64,000 bases of DNA from Candidatus Woesearchaeota archaeon (GTDB lineage Archaea; Nanobdellota; Nanobdellia; Woesearchaeales; UBA9642), in NCBI GenBank assembly GCA_003599145.1, contig QZIT01000006.1:310001-374000 (forward strand). Reading direction: 5' to 3'. The notes under the pieces are model-generated. The model had not been told where the DNA came from, made no database searches, and saw only the letters and a program-made list of their open reading frames with translations. This document shows positions 26,321-32,984 of this stretch, one piece after another; the first letter of the stretch is position 1; the number at the start of each line of letters is the position of its first letter. A program made the translations under genes and the position numbers.

Positions 26321-26359
26321 AAGCAAAATATTTATAAACGCACTGTCTTAAAATAGCCT

Positions 26360-26983
26360 ATGGGAAAAGAGGTGGAGGAGTATATTACGAAGACTCATAA
26401 AAAAGGCTATAGCTATCAACAAATTGAGCAAAAATTGATGAAAGCAGGCTATAGCCAAAAGGAAGTTGAAAAAGAGATAAGAAAAATAGAGCGAAGAGTC
26501 TATGTTGAAGTGTTTTTCTTTATTGCTGTTGTCGTTCTTTTATTGCTTGCTTTGTTCTTGACTAACCCTTTTGAAAAAAATAATGGGCAAAACGAGGTAA
26601 TAACACCTGAAGACCGTGCAAAGTTTGAATTGGCAGTGCAAGAAAAAAATCCTGCAGATTGCCTTGCCATAAACAATAATGCGCTAAAACAGGAATGCTC
26701 AAGGCTTGCTGCAAAACCTATAGAAACAGGGCCTTCTGCAGATGATAGGGCAATCTTTGAGATTGCTGTTCAGCAAAAAGCTCCTGAAAACTGCCAACAA
26801 ATACAGTATGAGCAATTGAAAAATGAATGTGTCAGACTGGCAAGCATGCCTGAACAGCAAAATGAAATAACTATTGATGATAGAACTTTGTTTGAGCAGG
26901 CAGTTGCCGATAAAGATCCATCCTTATGCTCTTCAATTACTGATCAAGATTTACAAAATGAATGTCTGAGATTAACGAGGTGA
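26360..26983 (+). CDS. membrane protein with three Cys-pair repeats
   Basis: A 207-aa protein. An N-terminal helical domain (residues 1-45; GYSYQQIEQKLMKAGYSQ repeats the style of short UBA-like or SHOCT-like helices) is followed by one transmembrane helix (48-68). Outside are three repeats of about 40 residues, each reading D(D/E)R..FE.AV..K.P..C....and then ..EC.RL. Each repeat holds one Cys pair, probably a disulfide. The gene starts an operon with the fibre-like protein 5 bases downstream. The TATA box is at about 26327-26336. Function unknown; the repeats resemble those of the 46.7-kb lipoprotein. Confidence 0.65.
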   Translation: MGKEVEEYITKTHKKGYSYQQIEQKLMKAGYSQKEVEKEIRKIERRVYVEVFFFIAVVVLLLLALFLTNPFEKNNGQNEVITPEDRAKFELAVQEKNPADCLAINNNALKQECSRLAAKPIETGPSADDRAIFEIAVQQKAPENCQQIQYEQLKNECVRLASMPEQQNEITIDDRTLFEQAVADKDPSLCSSITDQDLQNECLRLTR

Positions 26984-26987
26984 AACT

Positions 26988-29870
26988 ATGAGAAAAATAA
27001 TACTTTTTGCACTGTTCTTTTTGGTTATCGGATTGGTTACTGCAGTAACGCCAAATCCAGGACATGCCTGTACTACTGTCGATACGATTGGTTGTAATCC
27101 TATTTCTGCAACAAGCACTGCAGGAGGAACGCCTGCAGTAGTTGGTGTTGGTTCAGGTGGAATTTCGGGTTATCTTGGCTATTCTGGCTATGGCCTGTAT
27201 ACTCCTCAGTCAGGAAGCGTTGGAGGTTATTGGGAAGTTGTTGGTCAGGTGAGATCAAATCAGTATTGCAATTTAGCAGGAGGCAACTGCAATAATTGGG
27301 ATGATGTCTATAACTCTGTTAATTGGTATACTATTACAGGAGGCAATACTGGATGGACAGATAATGCAAATAATGTTTATACAACAACCGATGCAGATGT
27401 TGTTGGCATTGGAGATACAACTCCAGATGCTCGTTTGGAAATAAGCGGAAATGGCGGAGCAACAGATTTGCTAAGAGTGAGTTCTAATGATGCAAACGAT
27501 GGAGATAGATTTGTTGTTAAGAATTCGGGAAACACGGGAGTGGGAGTTGCAAATCCTTCTAATAGATTAGAGGTTGCTGGAACAGTAAATGCTTCTGGTG
27601 ATGTTTGTACTGCACTTGCTGGCGGAAGGTGTTTGAGTACGGTTTCTGGAGGTGCTGTAGGACCTGGTACTTCAAGCAGAGTTGCAAAGTTTAATGCAGC
27701 AGGCAATAATGTTATTGATTCTCAAATTTTTGATGGCGGAGGAAATGTCGGTCTTAATACGATATTTCCTGGAGCTAAACTTGAAATTTATAGCACGAAT
27801 GCTGTTGAAGCTGAATTGTTGCGCTTGAGAAATGGTGCATGGAATGCTAATCAATTATCCACCCTTAGCTTTTTTTCAGGAGATGGCACTACGAATAATA
27901 GAAATACTGCTTCTATTAAGAGCAAGTTGTATAGTGGTGGTACTGCTGGAGATTTATCTTTCTGGACAAACGATGCTGGAACATTGACACAAAAAATGGT
28001 CATTACTAATACAGGAGATGTTCTTGTTACTGATAATGTTAACGCAACAGGAGATGTTTGTACTGCGCTTGCTGGCGGAAGGTGTTTGAGTACTATATCC
28101 GCAGGTGGTGGTTATTGGTCTAGGACTGCTGGAGGTTTAGTATATCCTACTACGTTAACAGATAGTGTTGGTATTGGCACATCTTCCCCTACACAAAGAT
28201 TGCAGGTTGCCGGTGCTATACGTGCAGATACTTTTTTAGCAGCAGGCACTCCCTTGGCTAATGCGGGAACAGGCGATATATCAGCTCAAAACACTATTGC
28301 TGCCGGAAACTACATTGCTGCAGGATGTGAAGAACAATCTCAATGTGGCACTAATGGATATTCCACTATGTATGCTAACGGTTGGGGAATGTTCAGCAAA
28401 AGTATTAAAGTCGGGGGATGGGAAGATCCTGGACAAGGAAATATAAAAGCAGATAATATTGTAAGCGGTGCGTATGTCGGAGCAGGAACTGCAAGTCCTA
28501 CAGCCACTTTAGAAGTTGCTGGAAACCAAGGTGGCGTTGGTGGGAAGAATTTTAAAGTTACGTTTCCTGGAGGAGGAGCACTTACAGGCACAGAAATGTC
28601 AGGACTTGCACACGTCAATGGCGTTTGGACTGCATTGTATGCAAAACAGGGTTCTGCAACTTCTGCAGCTTTCTTCAATGGAAGTGTTGGTGTTGGAACA
28701 GCAATTCCTAGTGGAAAATTACATGTAGTTTCAACAGATAATACTGGCGCTGGAGATTTTGGCGTATATGTTACTTCTCAGGGCTCAGATGCTATAGATG
28801 CAGCAATCTATGCAAGTGGAGTGGGAAACGGTCTCTTCGGCTCAGGTAATTTCGTTGGTGTTAAAGGAACAGGAGGAACTAGAGGCGTTGAAGGATTTGG
28901 TCCCATTGGCATCTATGGTGGAGGATCTGCCTATGGAGTTCAGGGCATTGGCCCAACAGGTGTGTTCGGTAGAGATAGTACCTTGGGAACTGGATGGGCA
29001 GGCTATTTTGAGGGCAGAGGTTACTTTTCCCAGAATGTTGGCATAGGAACGTTAAGCCCTACAGAGAGGTTGCACGTTAATGGCGGTTCTGCAGATACAA
29101 AGATAATGGTTGAAGCTACTGGCGGTAATAATGTTGCTCTGCGTTTGGCTAATGGCAATAGAAGATGGACTCTTCAGAATATGGGTACAGGTACCTTGAG
29201 AATTTATGATGAGACAGCAGCTTCTGAAAGGTTATCTATATCTAGTTCTGGTGATGTTGGTATTGGTAAATCAACTCCCACTGCAAGACTTGATGTGGTG
29301 GGTGTTAGTTCTAGCAATGTTGCTATTCGAGGAGTTGGAACTGGAGGAACGGGTGTTGAGGCATCTGGAACTACAGGTGTGCGAGGCACAGGCACGATAA
29401 CAGGACTGGTAGGCGTAGGAACTGATTTTGGATTAACTGCAAGTGCAACAGGAGCAGGCTCTAGAGGAGTTTATTCAATGAGCAGTAACGGTATTGGAGT
29501 TGAGGGCAGTGGAACCACAAATGATTTCTATGCGTCTGGAACAGGAACGAATTATGGAGCAGCATCTTCAATCAGATGGAAATCTGATGTGAAGGAAATA
29601 GACGACGCTTTAGACACAGTTACTAAAATAAGAGGAGTTACGTTTACTTGGGATAAAGAACATGGCGGCCAAGAGGATATGGGTTTCATTGCTGAAGAAG
29701 TTGGAAAGGAAATTCCTGAAATAGTTTCTTATGAAGAAAATGGCGTTGATGCTGTAGCTGTTGATTATGGAGCAATAACGCCTGTGCTTGTTGAAGCTAT
29801 CAAGGAATTAAAAGCAGAAAACGACGAGCTTAAAAAAAGAGTAGATGCATTGGAAAAGAAAAACAAATGA
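26988..29870 (+). CDS. secreted tail-fibre-like protein with C-terminal S74 chaperone domain
   Basis: A 960-aa protein with signal peptide (residues 1-19). The body has repeats of the type VGIGTxSPTxRLxVxG, at least six times, as in phage tail fibres and bacterial adhesins. At the C-terminus (860-960) is an intramolecular chaperone auto-processing domain, peptidase S74: SSIRWKSDVKEIDDAL with the Ser860/Lys865 pair, GFIAEEVG, VDYGAITPVLVEAIKEL and a closing coiled coil. By family, the chaperone trimerises the fibre and then cuts itself off. The gene sits in an operon with two surface proteins, so a cell-surface trimeric adhesin is the simplest reading. A captured prophage tail gene is the alternative, but no other phage gene is near. 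Confidence 0.85.
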   Translation: MRKIILFALFFLVIGLVTAVTPNPGHACTTVDTIGCNPISATSTAGGTPAVVGVGSGGISGYLGYSGYGLYTPQSGSVGGYWEVVGQVRSNQYCNLAGGNCNNWDDVYNSVNWYTITGGNTGWTDNANNVYTTTDADVVGIGDTTPDARLEISGNGGATDLLRVSSNDANDGDRFVVKNSGNTGVGVANPSNRLEVAGTVNASGDVCTALAGGRCLSTVSGGAVGPGTSSRVAKFNAAGNNVIDSQIFDGGGNVGLNTIFPGAKLEIYSTNAVEAELLRLRNGAWNANQLSTLSFFSGDGTTNNRNTASIKSKLYSGGTAGDLSFWTNDAGTLTQKMVITNTGDVLVTDNVNATGDVCTALAGGRCLSTISAGGGYWSRTAGGLVYPTTLTDSVGIGTSSPTQRLQVAGAIRADTFLAAGTPLANAGTGDISAQNTIAAGNYIAAGCEEQSQCGTNGYSTMYANGWGMFSKSIKVGGWEDPGQGNIKADNIVSGAYVGAGTASPTATLEVAGNQGGVGGKNFKVTFPGGGALTGTEMSGLAHVNGVWTALYAKQGSATSAAFFNGSVGVGTAIPSGKLHVVSTDNTGAGDFGVYVTSQGSDAIDAAIYASGVGNGLFGSGNFVGVKGTGGTRGVEGFGPIGIYGGGSAYGVQGIGPTGVFGRDSTLGTGWAGYFEGRGYFSQNVGIGTLSPTERLHVNGGSADTKIMVEATGGNNVALRLANGNRRWTLQNMGTGTLRIYDETAASERLSISSSGDVGIGKSTPTARLDVVGVSSSNVAIRGVGTGGTGVEASGTTGVRGTGTITGLVGVGTDFGLTASATGAGSRGVYSMSSNGIGVEGSGTTNDFYASGTGTNYGAASSIRWKSDVKEIDDALDTVTKIRGVTFTWDKEHGGQEDMGFIAEEVGKEIPEIVSYEENGVDAVAVDYGAITPVLVEAIKELKAENDELKKRVDALEKKNK
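27600..28093 (+). repeat. 41-bp direct repeat inside the fibre-like gene
   Basis: Copies at 27600-27640 and 28053-28093 differ at one base and encode DVCTALAGGRCLST both times. They mark an internal duplication of the coding unit. Confidence 0.8.
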
Positions 29871-31210
29871 AGAAATTAGTGCTACTGTTAACATTGGTAC
29901 TTTTCCTTACAGTCATCGCTGTAAAGGCAGATTGTTATTTTGCTAATTCATGCAATGCAGGAGATGTTGCCTTTATCAGAGCTTCTGCAACGAATAATGC
30001 ACATGCAGAATTACGAACGCAATCAACTGCGGGATATCAGAATGTTTGCTGCCCCAACACTTGGAATTATACCTGCACTATTCCTGCGGATAGGGCATTG
30101 AAATTACAGGCAGTTACCAATTCACATGTACAGAGAGCAAGTTTAGCAACATATGCAAATGATGTTTGTATTAAAGGGGTAACGTATTACACTGCTGCAG
30201 GCGTTGCATGTAATGTTGGTGATGATTGTGTTTTGAAAATGAGTGGTTCAGATAATGCCCATATTGCAGACTGCACTGCAGGTGTTATTTGGGAAAGACT
30301 CTGCGTTCTTCCTTCAGTTAGCCCTTCACTGAATTTTCAATGTACACTTTCCAATGTAACTATAAAGCCTAATTGTGCAAACTGTAATGTAGGAGCAAAT
30401 ATTTCTCTTACAGGCTATGTTTCAGGAAATTGCTCTAATGTGAGAACAGTTCAGGTTGATGCAAGAAACGTTGCAGGTACTTGTGTTGTTAATGCATCTG
30501 GAGGCGACATTGCTGGTTTACGAGGAAGCTTATCCTTAGGCAATGATCTGGGAAACACGTTTATTAATACTTCATGGCTGGTTCCAGCTATCAATGCAGA
30601 TTGCCAAGGCCAGACAGTCAATGCAACCGTTGGCTTTTTGTTTAACAATACCAATCAGTTAGAGGGAGAAACAACTAATGCATATGGTGGTTTAACGTTT
30701 GCAGGTGGCTTTCCTATAGCCATGAGATGCGGAAATGTAAGTATCAATGGAGTAACTACGTTTGATCCTGCATGCAACGCAACAACACCACCGCCTAGCT
30801 TATTCTGCGGAGCTGCAGACAATTGTGTTTATGGCAATGAAACCACTGGGTTGAATCCAAGCTGTTATGGAAAGTTCAATACGAGATTGAATGAGAAAGG
30901 AAAGAGCATATGGTGCAGTGAGAGTAATTATTGGTGTCCTGAGAATTACGATTATAATCCTGCTACTCAGAAATGTGAGTATGGTACAACGATATGTGAT
31001 GAAGGGTATTTACCTCCAAGTCCAAAAGTGCCTCAAGTTACTTGCAATACTATCTTAGATATGATTCTGAATACTAGCAAGTGCTTTAATAATTATGTTC
31101 CTCCGCCAGAACCTTTGCCCTATGCTGAAGCTTGTTGCTATGACTTTAACTGGACAGTAAACGGAACAGATTATAATTATTATTCTGGAAAAGATATAGT
31201 TGTTTACTGA
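29867..31210 (+). CDS. secreted Cys-rich protein, 447 aa
   Basis: A signal peptide (residues 1-21, ending VKADC) leads into three degenerate repeats around (S/T)NNAHAEL, TNSHVQR and SDNAHIAD, each followed by a Cys. A beta-domain rich in N-x-S/T sequons follows, then a Cys-rich C-terminal third. There is no C-terminal membrane anchor. It overlaps the fibre gene by 4 bases (ATGA), implying translational coupling and probably a shared role at the cell surface. No known family. Confidence 0.65.
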   Translation: MKKLVLLLTLVLFLTVIAVKADCYFANSCNAGDVAFIRASATNNAHAELRTQSTAGYQNVCCPNTWNYTCTIPADRALKLQAVTNSHVQRASLATYANDVCIKGVTYYTAAGVACNVGDDCVLKMSGSDNAHIADCTAGVIWERLCVLPSVSPSLNFQCTLSNVTIKPNCANCNVGANISLTGYVSGNCSNVRTVQVDARNVAGTCVVNASGGDIAGLRGSLSLGNDLGNTFINTSWLVPAINADCQGQTVNATVGFLFNNTNQLEGETTNAYGGLTFAGGFPIAMRCGNVSINGVTTFDPACNATTPPPSLFCGAADNCVYGNETTGLNPSCYGKFNTRLNEKGKSIWCSESNYWCPENYDYNPATQKCEYGTTICDEGYLPPSPKVPQVTCNTILDMILNTSKCFNNYVPPPEPLPYAEACCYDFNWTVNGTDYNYYSGKDIVVY

Positions 31211-32922
31211 ACATCCAAAAGATTGATTATTGTACTTTTATCAGATTGAATTCTTTTATTTGCAAATGCCATTCCAATTTTCATATAGGCTACGTCTTTT
31301 GGTTGTGTTGGTACTAAGGGCGGATCATTCATGTTAGAAAGGTAGGCATGTACGTCATCTGCGTTTGTGTTTAATGCGCCACTAAGCTCTTGTAGTCTTT
31401 TATCAAATGCTGTGTGTGATCCACTAGTCATCCTAATATAAGATCCAACTAAATAATCTGCAGATATGTGATAGTTATGGCTTGCGCTCCATCCAGTACT
31501 TTTTCTAATAACAAAGCCAGGATCTGTCAATTGTAAACTGTCTGTCGTAACTGTATACATATCAATATCCATTATGTTTTCAAACCAATCTAATGTATTT
31601 TTAATACTGTCTTCTTCTAACTGTGTCCATCCCTGTAAATCTGTTGGCAGGGGAAAGTCAGAAAATCTAAACGTGATAGGGTAGGCATTAGGCCAAACAT
31701 CCTTCAACTCAGTTGCATCAACATCAACCATTTCCCCAGAAGGTATCTGATACTGCAAGGGTATCATGATTGCACTTTTTGTAGTAGTTCCAGCAATGCT
31801 TACAGGAGTTTTATAGTTATGAAAGCTTGGATGTTCTATGATGAGCGTGTAATCCTGAGCAGGTGCATTCAAAGAATAATTTCCCTGAGCATTGCTCTGT
31901 GTTTCCAACGTATCTGTTATTGTTGCAAGTTTAATCGTTGTACCAGGTAAAACTCCATCAAACGTATAGATTGTTCCGTTTACAGAAGGTGGTGCAATTG
32001 CTGTCCACGTAAACTGATTTGATTGTGCGGATAAAGCATTAAAAGCGTCGTTTGCAGTTATTTGCCTTTGTATGCTCTGTTCTGTTAAAGGATTCCAAAT
32101 GGCTGTGTCTCCATGGAACGTGATGTTTGCTGCTGTATATTGAGTAATATCATCATTGTTTATAGGCATAGCTACTTTGAGTGTTTCTCCAACATTTATT
32201 GTTGTATCTCTTATAGAACCAGTAAAAGAAGGCCCTCTGTTTCCTGTTATCATGATGTTTGCATCTTCATCAGGAACAATGGTTTCATCAAAGACATAAT
32301 TATTTTTCTGGGCAGTTATAGTTATATTATTCGTTGGTTTTGAAAGCGTTGATATGTTTGACGTTGAAGGGAATGTCCTTCCTGCATTATGCGTATTTCC
32401 ATCCATCAACACCATTTTCTTTGCAGATTGAAAATTGCCTGTTTGCATTCTTAGCAAGTAAACTCCAGCAGAAACACCATTGCCTCTGTCATCTGTTCCA
32501 TTCCATTCAATAGCATGATTTCCCAATTCTTGATAGCCATCAACAACAGTTTTTACTTTCTGCCCTAGAATGTTGAATATTTCTATGGAAACTCTTCCGT
32601 CTTTTTCCAAAGTATACGGAATGATAGTAGAGGGATTAAAAGGATTGGGATAATTTTGCTCTAATTGATAGGAAAAATTGCCGTTTGAAGCAGGCCCATC
32701 TAAAATGCCTGATACTGTAAGATTCAAAGAAAAATTTCCCTGGGCATCGGTTGTGTCTGAATCAAGAGCACTGCCATTATTTGCCATAACAACTGCGTTT
32801 GCAACGGGCTGAGAAACTGAACCGAATTTTCCATCCTGTACTTTTCCTGTTATGGTTGCAGCAGATACCTGTGCAACTGTCGTTAAGGCAAGTATGCTTC
32901 CCAGTATGCTCTCGAGCTTCAT
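31204..32922 (-). CDS. secreted protein with carboxypeptidase-like repeats and an internal FlgD/T9SS-type module
   Basis: A 572-aa protein. The signal peptide is residues 1-21 (ending QVSAAT). A carboxypeptidase regulatory-like domain at 23-75 has VANAVVMANN..TDAQGNFSLNL. At residues 87-175 is a module matching the FlgD Ig-like/Por-type sorting domain: NYPNPFNPSTIIPY, VSIEIFNILGQKV, GVYLLRMQTG. A second regulatory-like repeat near 320-390 (ITDTLETQSNAQGNYSLNAP) precedes an uncharacterised C-terminal 170 residues. In Bacteroidetes such modules are C-terminal; here it is internal. The TATA box at 32943-32952 fixes the start at 32922 rather than 32961. Bacterial origin of the module is likely (inference). 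Confidence 0.75.
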   Translation of the reverse strand: MKLESILGSILALTTVAQVSAATITGKVQDGKFGSVSQPVANAVVMANNGSALDSDTTDAQGNFSLNLTVSGILDGPASNGNFSYQLEQNYPNPFNPSTIIPYTLEKDGRVSIEIFNILGQKVKTVVDGYQELGNHAIEWNGTDDRGNGVSAGVYLLRMQTGNFQSAKKMVLMDGNTHNAGRTFPSTSNISTLSKPTNNITITAQKNNYVFDETIVPDEDANIMITGNRGPSFTGSIRDTTINVGETLKVAMPINNDDITQYTAANITFHGDTAIWNPLTEQSIQRQITANDAFNALSAQSNQFTWTAIAPPSVNGTIYTFDGVLPGTTIKLATITDTLETQSNAQGNYSLNAPAQDYTLIIEHPSFHNYKTPVSIAGTTTKSAIMIPLQYQIPSGEMVDVDATELKDVWPNAYPITFRFSDFPLPTDLQGWTQLEEDSIKNTLDWFENIMDIDMYTVTTDSLQLTDPGFVIRKSTGWSASHNYHISADYLVGSYIRMTSGSHTAFDKRLQELSGALNTNADDVHAYLSNMNDPPLVPTQPKDVAYMKIGMAFANKRIQSDKSTIINLLDVQ

Positions 32923-32984
32923 AGATGCTGCTAAGCGTTCTTTATTTATAAATGTTTCCATTTTTCTAACTACTAAGTAGTGAA

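Follow-up and report, generated by a model that had tools for sequence, protein, structure and literature searches.

Organization of the three-gene locus

The window analyzed here is a 64 000-nucleotide stretch (C2:310001–374000) of a 1.3 Mb woesearchaeotal genome, and its forward strand carries three closely spaced open reading frames that encode a membrane protein, a 960-aa fibre ending in a Peptidase_S74 (S74) domain and a Cys-rich secreted protein. The features of the locus are as follows (positions in the window):

26331–26338 (+), archaeal-type TATA-box-like sequence TTTATAAA, putative promoter judged from sequence
26360–26983 (+), gene 1 ORF, 207-aa membrane protein
26612–26980 (+), three gene 1 repeats of the type DR..FE.AV..K.P..C..I....L..EC.RL, from sequence
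26988–29870 (+), gene 2 ORF, 960-aa S74 fibre
26988–27047 (+), predicted signal peptide or membrane anchor at the N-terminus of the fibre, from hydropathy
27051–27065 (+), PNPGH box right after the signal peptide, with related boxes in other archaeal fibres
27402–29297 (+), shaft with capping-loop repeats (residues 139–770), from sequence
29565–29867 (+), S74 intramolecular chaperone/autoprotease with C-terminal helix (residues 860–960), from Pfam, alignment and model
29565–29567 and 29580–29582 (+), codons of Ser860 and Lys865, the predicted dyad
29867–31210 (+), gene 3 ORF, 447-aa secreted Cys-rich protein, by sequence
29945–30280 (+), domain of gene 3 named NAH here (residues 27–138), with ..LS..TNAH..E....Y...CC repeats

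The order, spacing and character of the three genes, as claimed in an earlier note on this DNA, were confirmed from the ORFs, hydropathy and Cys positions. Genes 2 and 3 share 4 bp, in agreement with the claimed spacing of –4, and the claimed spacing of 5 between genes 1 and 2 is the stop-to-start distance, the gap itself being 4 bp. A GAGGTG motif is located directly upstream of the fibre ATG. The center of TTTATAAA, one of 13 matches to the TATA-like pattern in the window, where 4.87 would arise by chance, lies approximately 25 bp upstream of the gene 1 ATG. The usual archaeal distance from TATA box to start would put the transcript start at or near this ATG, and the spacing of TTTATAAA would fit a leaderless or nearly leaderless transcript beginning at gene 1. 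On the opposite strand, a convergent neighbor (31204–32961, –), the stop of which overlaps the end of gene 3, encodes a protein in which carboxypeptidase-regulatory and FlgD-Ig domains are accompanied by an internal match to the type A sorting domain known from bacterial type IX secretion, which is odd for an archaeon.

According to hydropathy, the gene 1 protein contains one hydrophobic helix (approximately residues 49–67) preceded by a short N-terminal module; its three repeats start at residues 85, 129 and 174 and hold two each of its six Cys residues. Homologues, mostly of the N-terminal module, were found in 35 of 193 phylum genomes. This module (window 26360–26494) precedes transmembrane helices in many diverse membrane proteins of the phylum and is, as judged from these sequences, widespread and unnamed. 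The gene 3 protein has a signal-peptide-like N-terminus and 29 Cys residues. Its NAH domain of approximately 114 residues had no match in Pfam or PDB and occurs in 129 of 371 phylum genomes. A single-sequence structure model of the gene 3 protein reached a mean pLDDT of 32.6, too low for use.

The S74 domain and its predicted self-cleavage

Peptidase_S74 (PF13884) was the sole Pfam domain of the fibre, with none upstream of it, and matched residues 860–913 (E = 4.6e-12; 46.5 bits against a cut-off of 22; 52.2 bits in the whole-genome search). The motif SSIRWK begins at residue 860, so that 101 residues would be cut off; the S74 chaperone end proposed earlier is borne out by a match above the cut-off, and the predicted cut comes close to the 'last 100' residues claimed. 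The Ser-Lys pair was present in all 48 archaeal rows of the alignment that have letters at both columns, the remaining 3 of 51 rows being gapped, and among all 165 rows from archaea, bacteria and viruses we counted 151 Ser-Lys pairs, 13 gaps and one row with other letters. The spacing of Ser860 and Lys865 matches that of the dyads of MyRF (S587/K592) and endoNF (S911/K916), which are likewise five residues apart (PMC8326128).

We modeled residues 736–960 with AlphaFold2, using 16 sequences. The S74 part of the model, with block-mean pLDDT values of 89–97, shows the chaperone fold with its C-terminal helix, and residues 46–115 of the model, the tip proper, have values under 50. In comparisons with VIA-align, four S74 entries were matched at Z scores from 6.1 to 9.0, namely the MyRF ICA (7dc3; Z = 9.0, 28% identity), endoNF (3gw6; 7.2), the T5 fibre (4uw8; 6.3) and a phage chaperone (3gud; 6.1), and the next non-fibre row had a Z score of 2.4. 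Structures of mosaic adhesive trimers (MATs; 8onc, 8ond and 8oml) gave weak matches over the capping-loop part (Z = 2.3–2.8). By every test run, the gene 2 product is an S74 fibre. Because the S74 match and the fold are accompanied by Ser860 and Lys865, conserved as in MyRF and endoNF, self-cleavage of the fibre is very likely; trimerization together with cleavage is predicted by analogy with the relatives MyRF, endoNF and Bd3182.

Shaft and N-terminus of the fibre

Capping loops of the form VGIGT..P..L occur seven times along the shaft, whereas 2000 shuffled sequences gave 0.004 on average and never more than 1, and an eighth, looser loop is found at residue 183. A PDB sequence search at E ≤ 1 returned only one match, the Bdellovibrio MAT protein Bd2133 (E = 1.1e-4), which was aligned through the capping loops. 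The best PHROG matches were mostly to tail fibre families and covered the C-terminal part of the fibre. Of 64 archaeal fibre ORFs, some of them truncated, 24 have a GH-type box close to the N-terminus, according to a permissive pattern that picks up unrelated letters as well.

Conservation of the neighborhood

The S74 matches outside the genome of the window numbered 51; two partial matches in one genome (G131, profile positions 24–57) were dropped, which left 49 loci. All three gene types were found together at one of these (L033, genome G347), in another family and in the order NAH gene, membrane protein, fibre, separated by 3 and 21 bp. The NAH domain of L033 is carried on an N-terminus that looks pilin-like by eye, with no call by Pfam. 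The earlier claim would have failed had the neighbors been absent from every relative with the fibre, and it survives barely, through this single reordered trio. In the strict sense, a three-gene operon conserved across the phylum was rejected.

The partners recur separately. A NAH gene lies close by on the same strand at 5 of the 49 loci (L032, L033, L045, L056 and L067), compared with 0.36 expected if NAH genes were placed at random (Poisson, P = 3.6e-5). At the level of genomes, NAH was found in 19 of 43 with S74 against 129 of 371 overall, and this co-occurrence was not significant (P = 0.11). Proteins resembling gene 1 lie beside the fibre at L033 with both modules, at L035 with the Cys hairpins (divergent) and at L076, where the gene 1 N-terminal module is located near the C-terminus of the neighboring protein. 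At most archaeal S74 fibres, neither type of neighbor was present. Conversely, capping-loop genes were absent from 19 of 20 stretches around other strong NAH genes (the exception being L223), and among 10 other stretches with gene-1-like proteins a capping-loop neighbor was found only in L248, with a single match. Gene 3 as a fibre-specific partner was rejected, since NAH is a general surface domain.

We also compared the genes within 5 kb of S74 fibres with those of 20 control stretches, bearing in mind that the genes of one locus are not independent and that some rows counted below as Cys-rich or second-fibre genes are doubtful ORFs or pieces of broken fibres (for example, L035 6351, L038 6759 and L067 3097). 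Cys-rich secreted genes accounted for 21 of 397 genes against 2 of 384 in the controls (by locus, 15 of 49 against 2 of 20, the control stretches being longer), and second fibres for 13 of 397 against none of 384. Pilins, detected with a loose pattern, were not significantly enriched (7/397 versus 2/384, P = 0.18). The linkage between fibre and neighbors is therefore real but loose: it holds for the type of surface gene, and the exact trio is rare.

Distribution and relationships of the tip

S74 was detected in 43 of 371 phylum genomes. Within the family, which is represented by six genomes, it occurs only in that of the window, and the fibre is therefore dispensable in close relatives. A scan with the tip alignment found 69 loci in named genomes (Phycisphaerae, Patescibacteria, Pacearchaeota, Saprospiraceae and others) and 20 viral ones. 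In a quick tree of 131 short rows, from which five rows duplicating named records had been left out, the window tip stands beside a patescibacterial sequence (support 84, not starred), within a cluster of 11 rows comprising seven archaea and four bacteria (support 80). The tip thus appears to group, weakly, with Pacearchaeota and Patescibacteria and not with viruses, and the poorly resolved tree suggests exchange of tips between cellular lineages.

Second fibres with a shared N-terminus and another tip lie beside S74 fibres, most clearly at L042, where two nearby fibres have a near-identical N-terminus (VPNPGHSA...) and different tips, of which only one is S74. The combination of a constant end and exchangeable tips is described as the hallmark of MAT fibres (PMC10769870), and the shared N-termini and swapped tips seen here would amount to a MAT-like mosaicism.

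Several other S74 fibres have unusual forms. In a Desulfurococcales archaeon MAG (L169, 111–4151, +), a 1346-aa fibre has an archaeal pilin-like N-terminus, recognized by eye with no Pfam call, and its coiled coil is followed by a hydrophobic segment. A fibre in a Paceibacterota MAG (L147, 2306–4345, +) begins with a type IV pilin-like N-terminus (GVRGVVLVEILMYTAILGI), again with no Pfam call, which suggests fibres mounted on pili. A Pacearchaeota genome encodes an S74 fibre of 5212 aa in which the capping-loop pattern matches 27 times (L061, 4241–19879, –), and one genome (G277) contains four S74 loci, of which L067 (3097–4789, +) is split over two ORFs and is probably a broken copy.

Chromosomal setting and alternative explanations

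The genome contains one copy of the fibre gene. The genes flanking the locus encode an archaea-specific ThrRS editing-domain protein, a UbiA prenyltransferase, EF-2/EF-G and enolase and, further, iPGM, phosphomannomutase, HupE and an S49 peptidase. Profile searches of the whole genome gave no match to the contractile sheath (PF04984) or Baseplate_J (PF04865), each of which was matched in 3 of 14 control genomes. The T2SSE family had five matches, which may represent secretion or pilus ATPases. The possibility that the locus is a decayed prophage, raised beforehand as a refutation, failed on these housekeeping neighbors and on the missing sheath and baseplate matches; together with a tip cluster that holds no virus, they led us to reject a prophage or eCIS origin.

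A related explanation is that the protein was domesticated recently from, and is still deployed on, a particle, as the tail fibre of an archaeal virus, a contractile injection system or another phage-derived particle, and is not fixed to the cell. It would account for the PHROG matches to tail fibres and for the occurrence of related S74 tips in viral contigs and phages, and eCIS fibres can carry S74 (PMC12923769). We regard it as improbable, however: the company of virion or contractile-tail genes expected of such a fibre was not found, the genome has no sheath or Baseplate_J match (with profiles that matched 3 of 14 control genomes each), the 11-row tip cluster includes no virus, although its support is only 80, and the phage match at the top of the listing extends over 28% of the fibre, with an identity of 27%. 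Moreover, the N-terminus resembles a signal peptide, whereas tail fibres are generally synthesized in the cytosol. Still more remote is a release device of the MyRF type, in which the S74 cut would release the upstream portion from the membrane, to act as a signal or a secreted factor, and would have no part in adhesin maturation. The MyRF ICA is indeed the best structural match, but upstream of S74 the fibre has shaft repeats only and no Pfam domain, and its hydrophobic segment is N-terminal, whereas that of MyRF sits after the S74 domain.

The alternative that deserves most weight, although we think it rather unlikely, is an ordinary surface or matrix fibre that serves self-adhesion or the binding of sediment or glycans in a cell living freely or in loose association, genes 1 and 3 being merely co-located surface genes and a dedicated organelle being absent. 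The single recurrence of the trio among 49 loci agrees with it, as do the tandem fibres and assorted Cys-rich secreted genes near S74 fibres, which suggest a shuffling surface-gene region, and the similar tips in Phycisphaerae and Saprospiraceae, groups with no indication of episymbionts in this analysis. On the other hand, the near-overlapping genes behind a single TATA-like box, the excess of NAH-type genes near the fibre and the re-formation of the trio in a different order in another family argue against mere co-location.

Proposed function

We consider it probable, at roughly 0.6, that the fibre is an autoprocessed trimeric cell-surface adhesin that works like a MAT fibre of Bdellovibrio. 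According to this model, the gene 2 product would be exported and three chains would fold together into an intertwined beta-helical shaft stabilized by the capping loops, for which the C-terminal S74 domain with its coiled coil would serve as the folding template. After trimerization, Ser860 with Lys865 would remove the last 101 residues, which would lock the fibre and expose a tip (residues ~790–859) that would bind a surface glycan or protein, and the hydrophobic segment and PNPGH box would retain the N-terminus at the envelope. The products of gene 1 (in the membrane, with its Cys hairpins outside) and gene 3 (secreted, with its disulfide-rich NAH domain) might act as accessory proteins that anchor or decorate the fibre.

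The computed support covers the S74 family, the dyad, the fold, the capping loops, the chromosomal archaeal location and the loose linkage. The adhesin role is likely, the accessory roles of genes 1 and 3 are conjectural, and a host cell as the target of the fibre is our hypothesis. The earlier note had read the locus as a surface operon, possibly for an attachment organelle, in an archaeon dependent on host contact. What we uphold is an archaeal S74 fibre in a cellular, not a prophage, setting and tightly spaced with genes for a membrane and a secreted protein; a single structure formed by the three proteins, the organelle and the host dependence are conjectures.

On a broader scale, DPANN archaea and Patescibacteria might share, through gene transfer, a family of mosaic adhesive fibres that process themselves and select the cell for attachment, some of them mounted on pilin-type N-termini. 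The trio of the window would then be one complete version, equipped with a membrane anchor and a disulfide-rich partner of its own; we offer this as a tentative possibility. The proteins by which DPANN archaea recognize partner cells are largely unknown, as has been said of the YN1 organelle (PMC11420986). The S74 fibre, built from known parts but archaeal, predicted to be autoprocessed and testable, provides a handle, since the residue at which it would be cut can be named, a trimer is predicted and the tip lends itself to glycan arrays, and its patchy distribution (43/371 genomes) could be set against the range of partners. The fibre is similar to those with which a predatory bacterium recognizes its prey, and it is a candidate for how archaea with tiny genomes hold other cells; if this is true, the MAT logic of that predator would extend to another domain of life.

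Comparison with known systems

By title and abstract opening, no description of archaeal S74 or DPANN fibres was found in the open-licence literature. The nearest solved S74 fold is the MyRF ICA (7dc3), but MyRF is a eukaryotic membrane transcription factor. Phage S74 tailspikes and fibres (K1F endosialidase, 3gw6; T5 L-shaped fibre, 4uw8) and the chaperone 3gud have the same fold and dyad, whereas the window fibre is cellular, apparently exported and not beside virion genes. In general biology, and as likened by description, the locus recalls the inter-archaeal filaments and fibres reported as the YN1 attachment organelle in Nanobdellota, whose protein composition is described as unknown (PMC11420986), and as the ARM-1/AS-7 antennae, which are described on the AS-7 (host) cells and have tips recalling phage tail fibres (PMC11329633).

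The closest likeness is to the MAT superfamily, reported in a paper the main text of which does not contain the word 'archaea' (PMC10769870). The window fibre is likewise long, with a predicted signal peptide, an S74 end carrying the Ser-Lys dyad and a shaft of seven regular capping loops and one looser loop, and its alignment with Bd2133 pairs loops with loops; its archaeal relatives share N-termini and swap tips. The MAT capping-loop consensus is printed as V-G-G/N-pi-X-X-P-X-X-X-L (PMC10769870), and the window loops, in which Pro comes one residue later, do not match it literally. The window fibre further differs in being archaeal and the product of one gene, compared with the 21 MAT fibres of B. 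bacteriovorus (PMC10769870), in having SS and not SD at the cut, and in its membrane and Cys-rich neighbors. Directly after the signal peptide, MATs have a conserved beta-rich domain of ~130 aa, and at this position the window fibre has the archaeal GH-type box. By analogy, the fibre is MAT-like, a candidate member of the superfamily, and would work as a MAT does, a likeness set by the loops and the S74 end.
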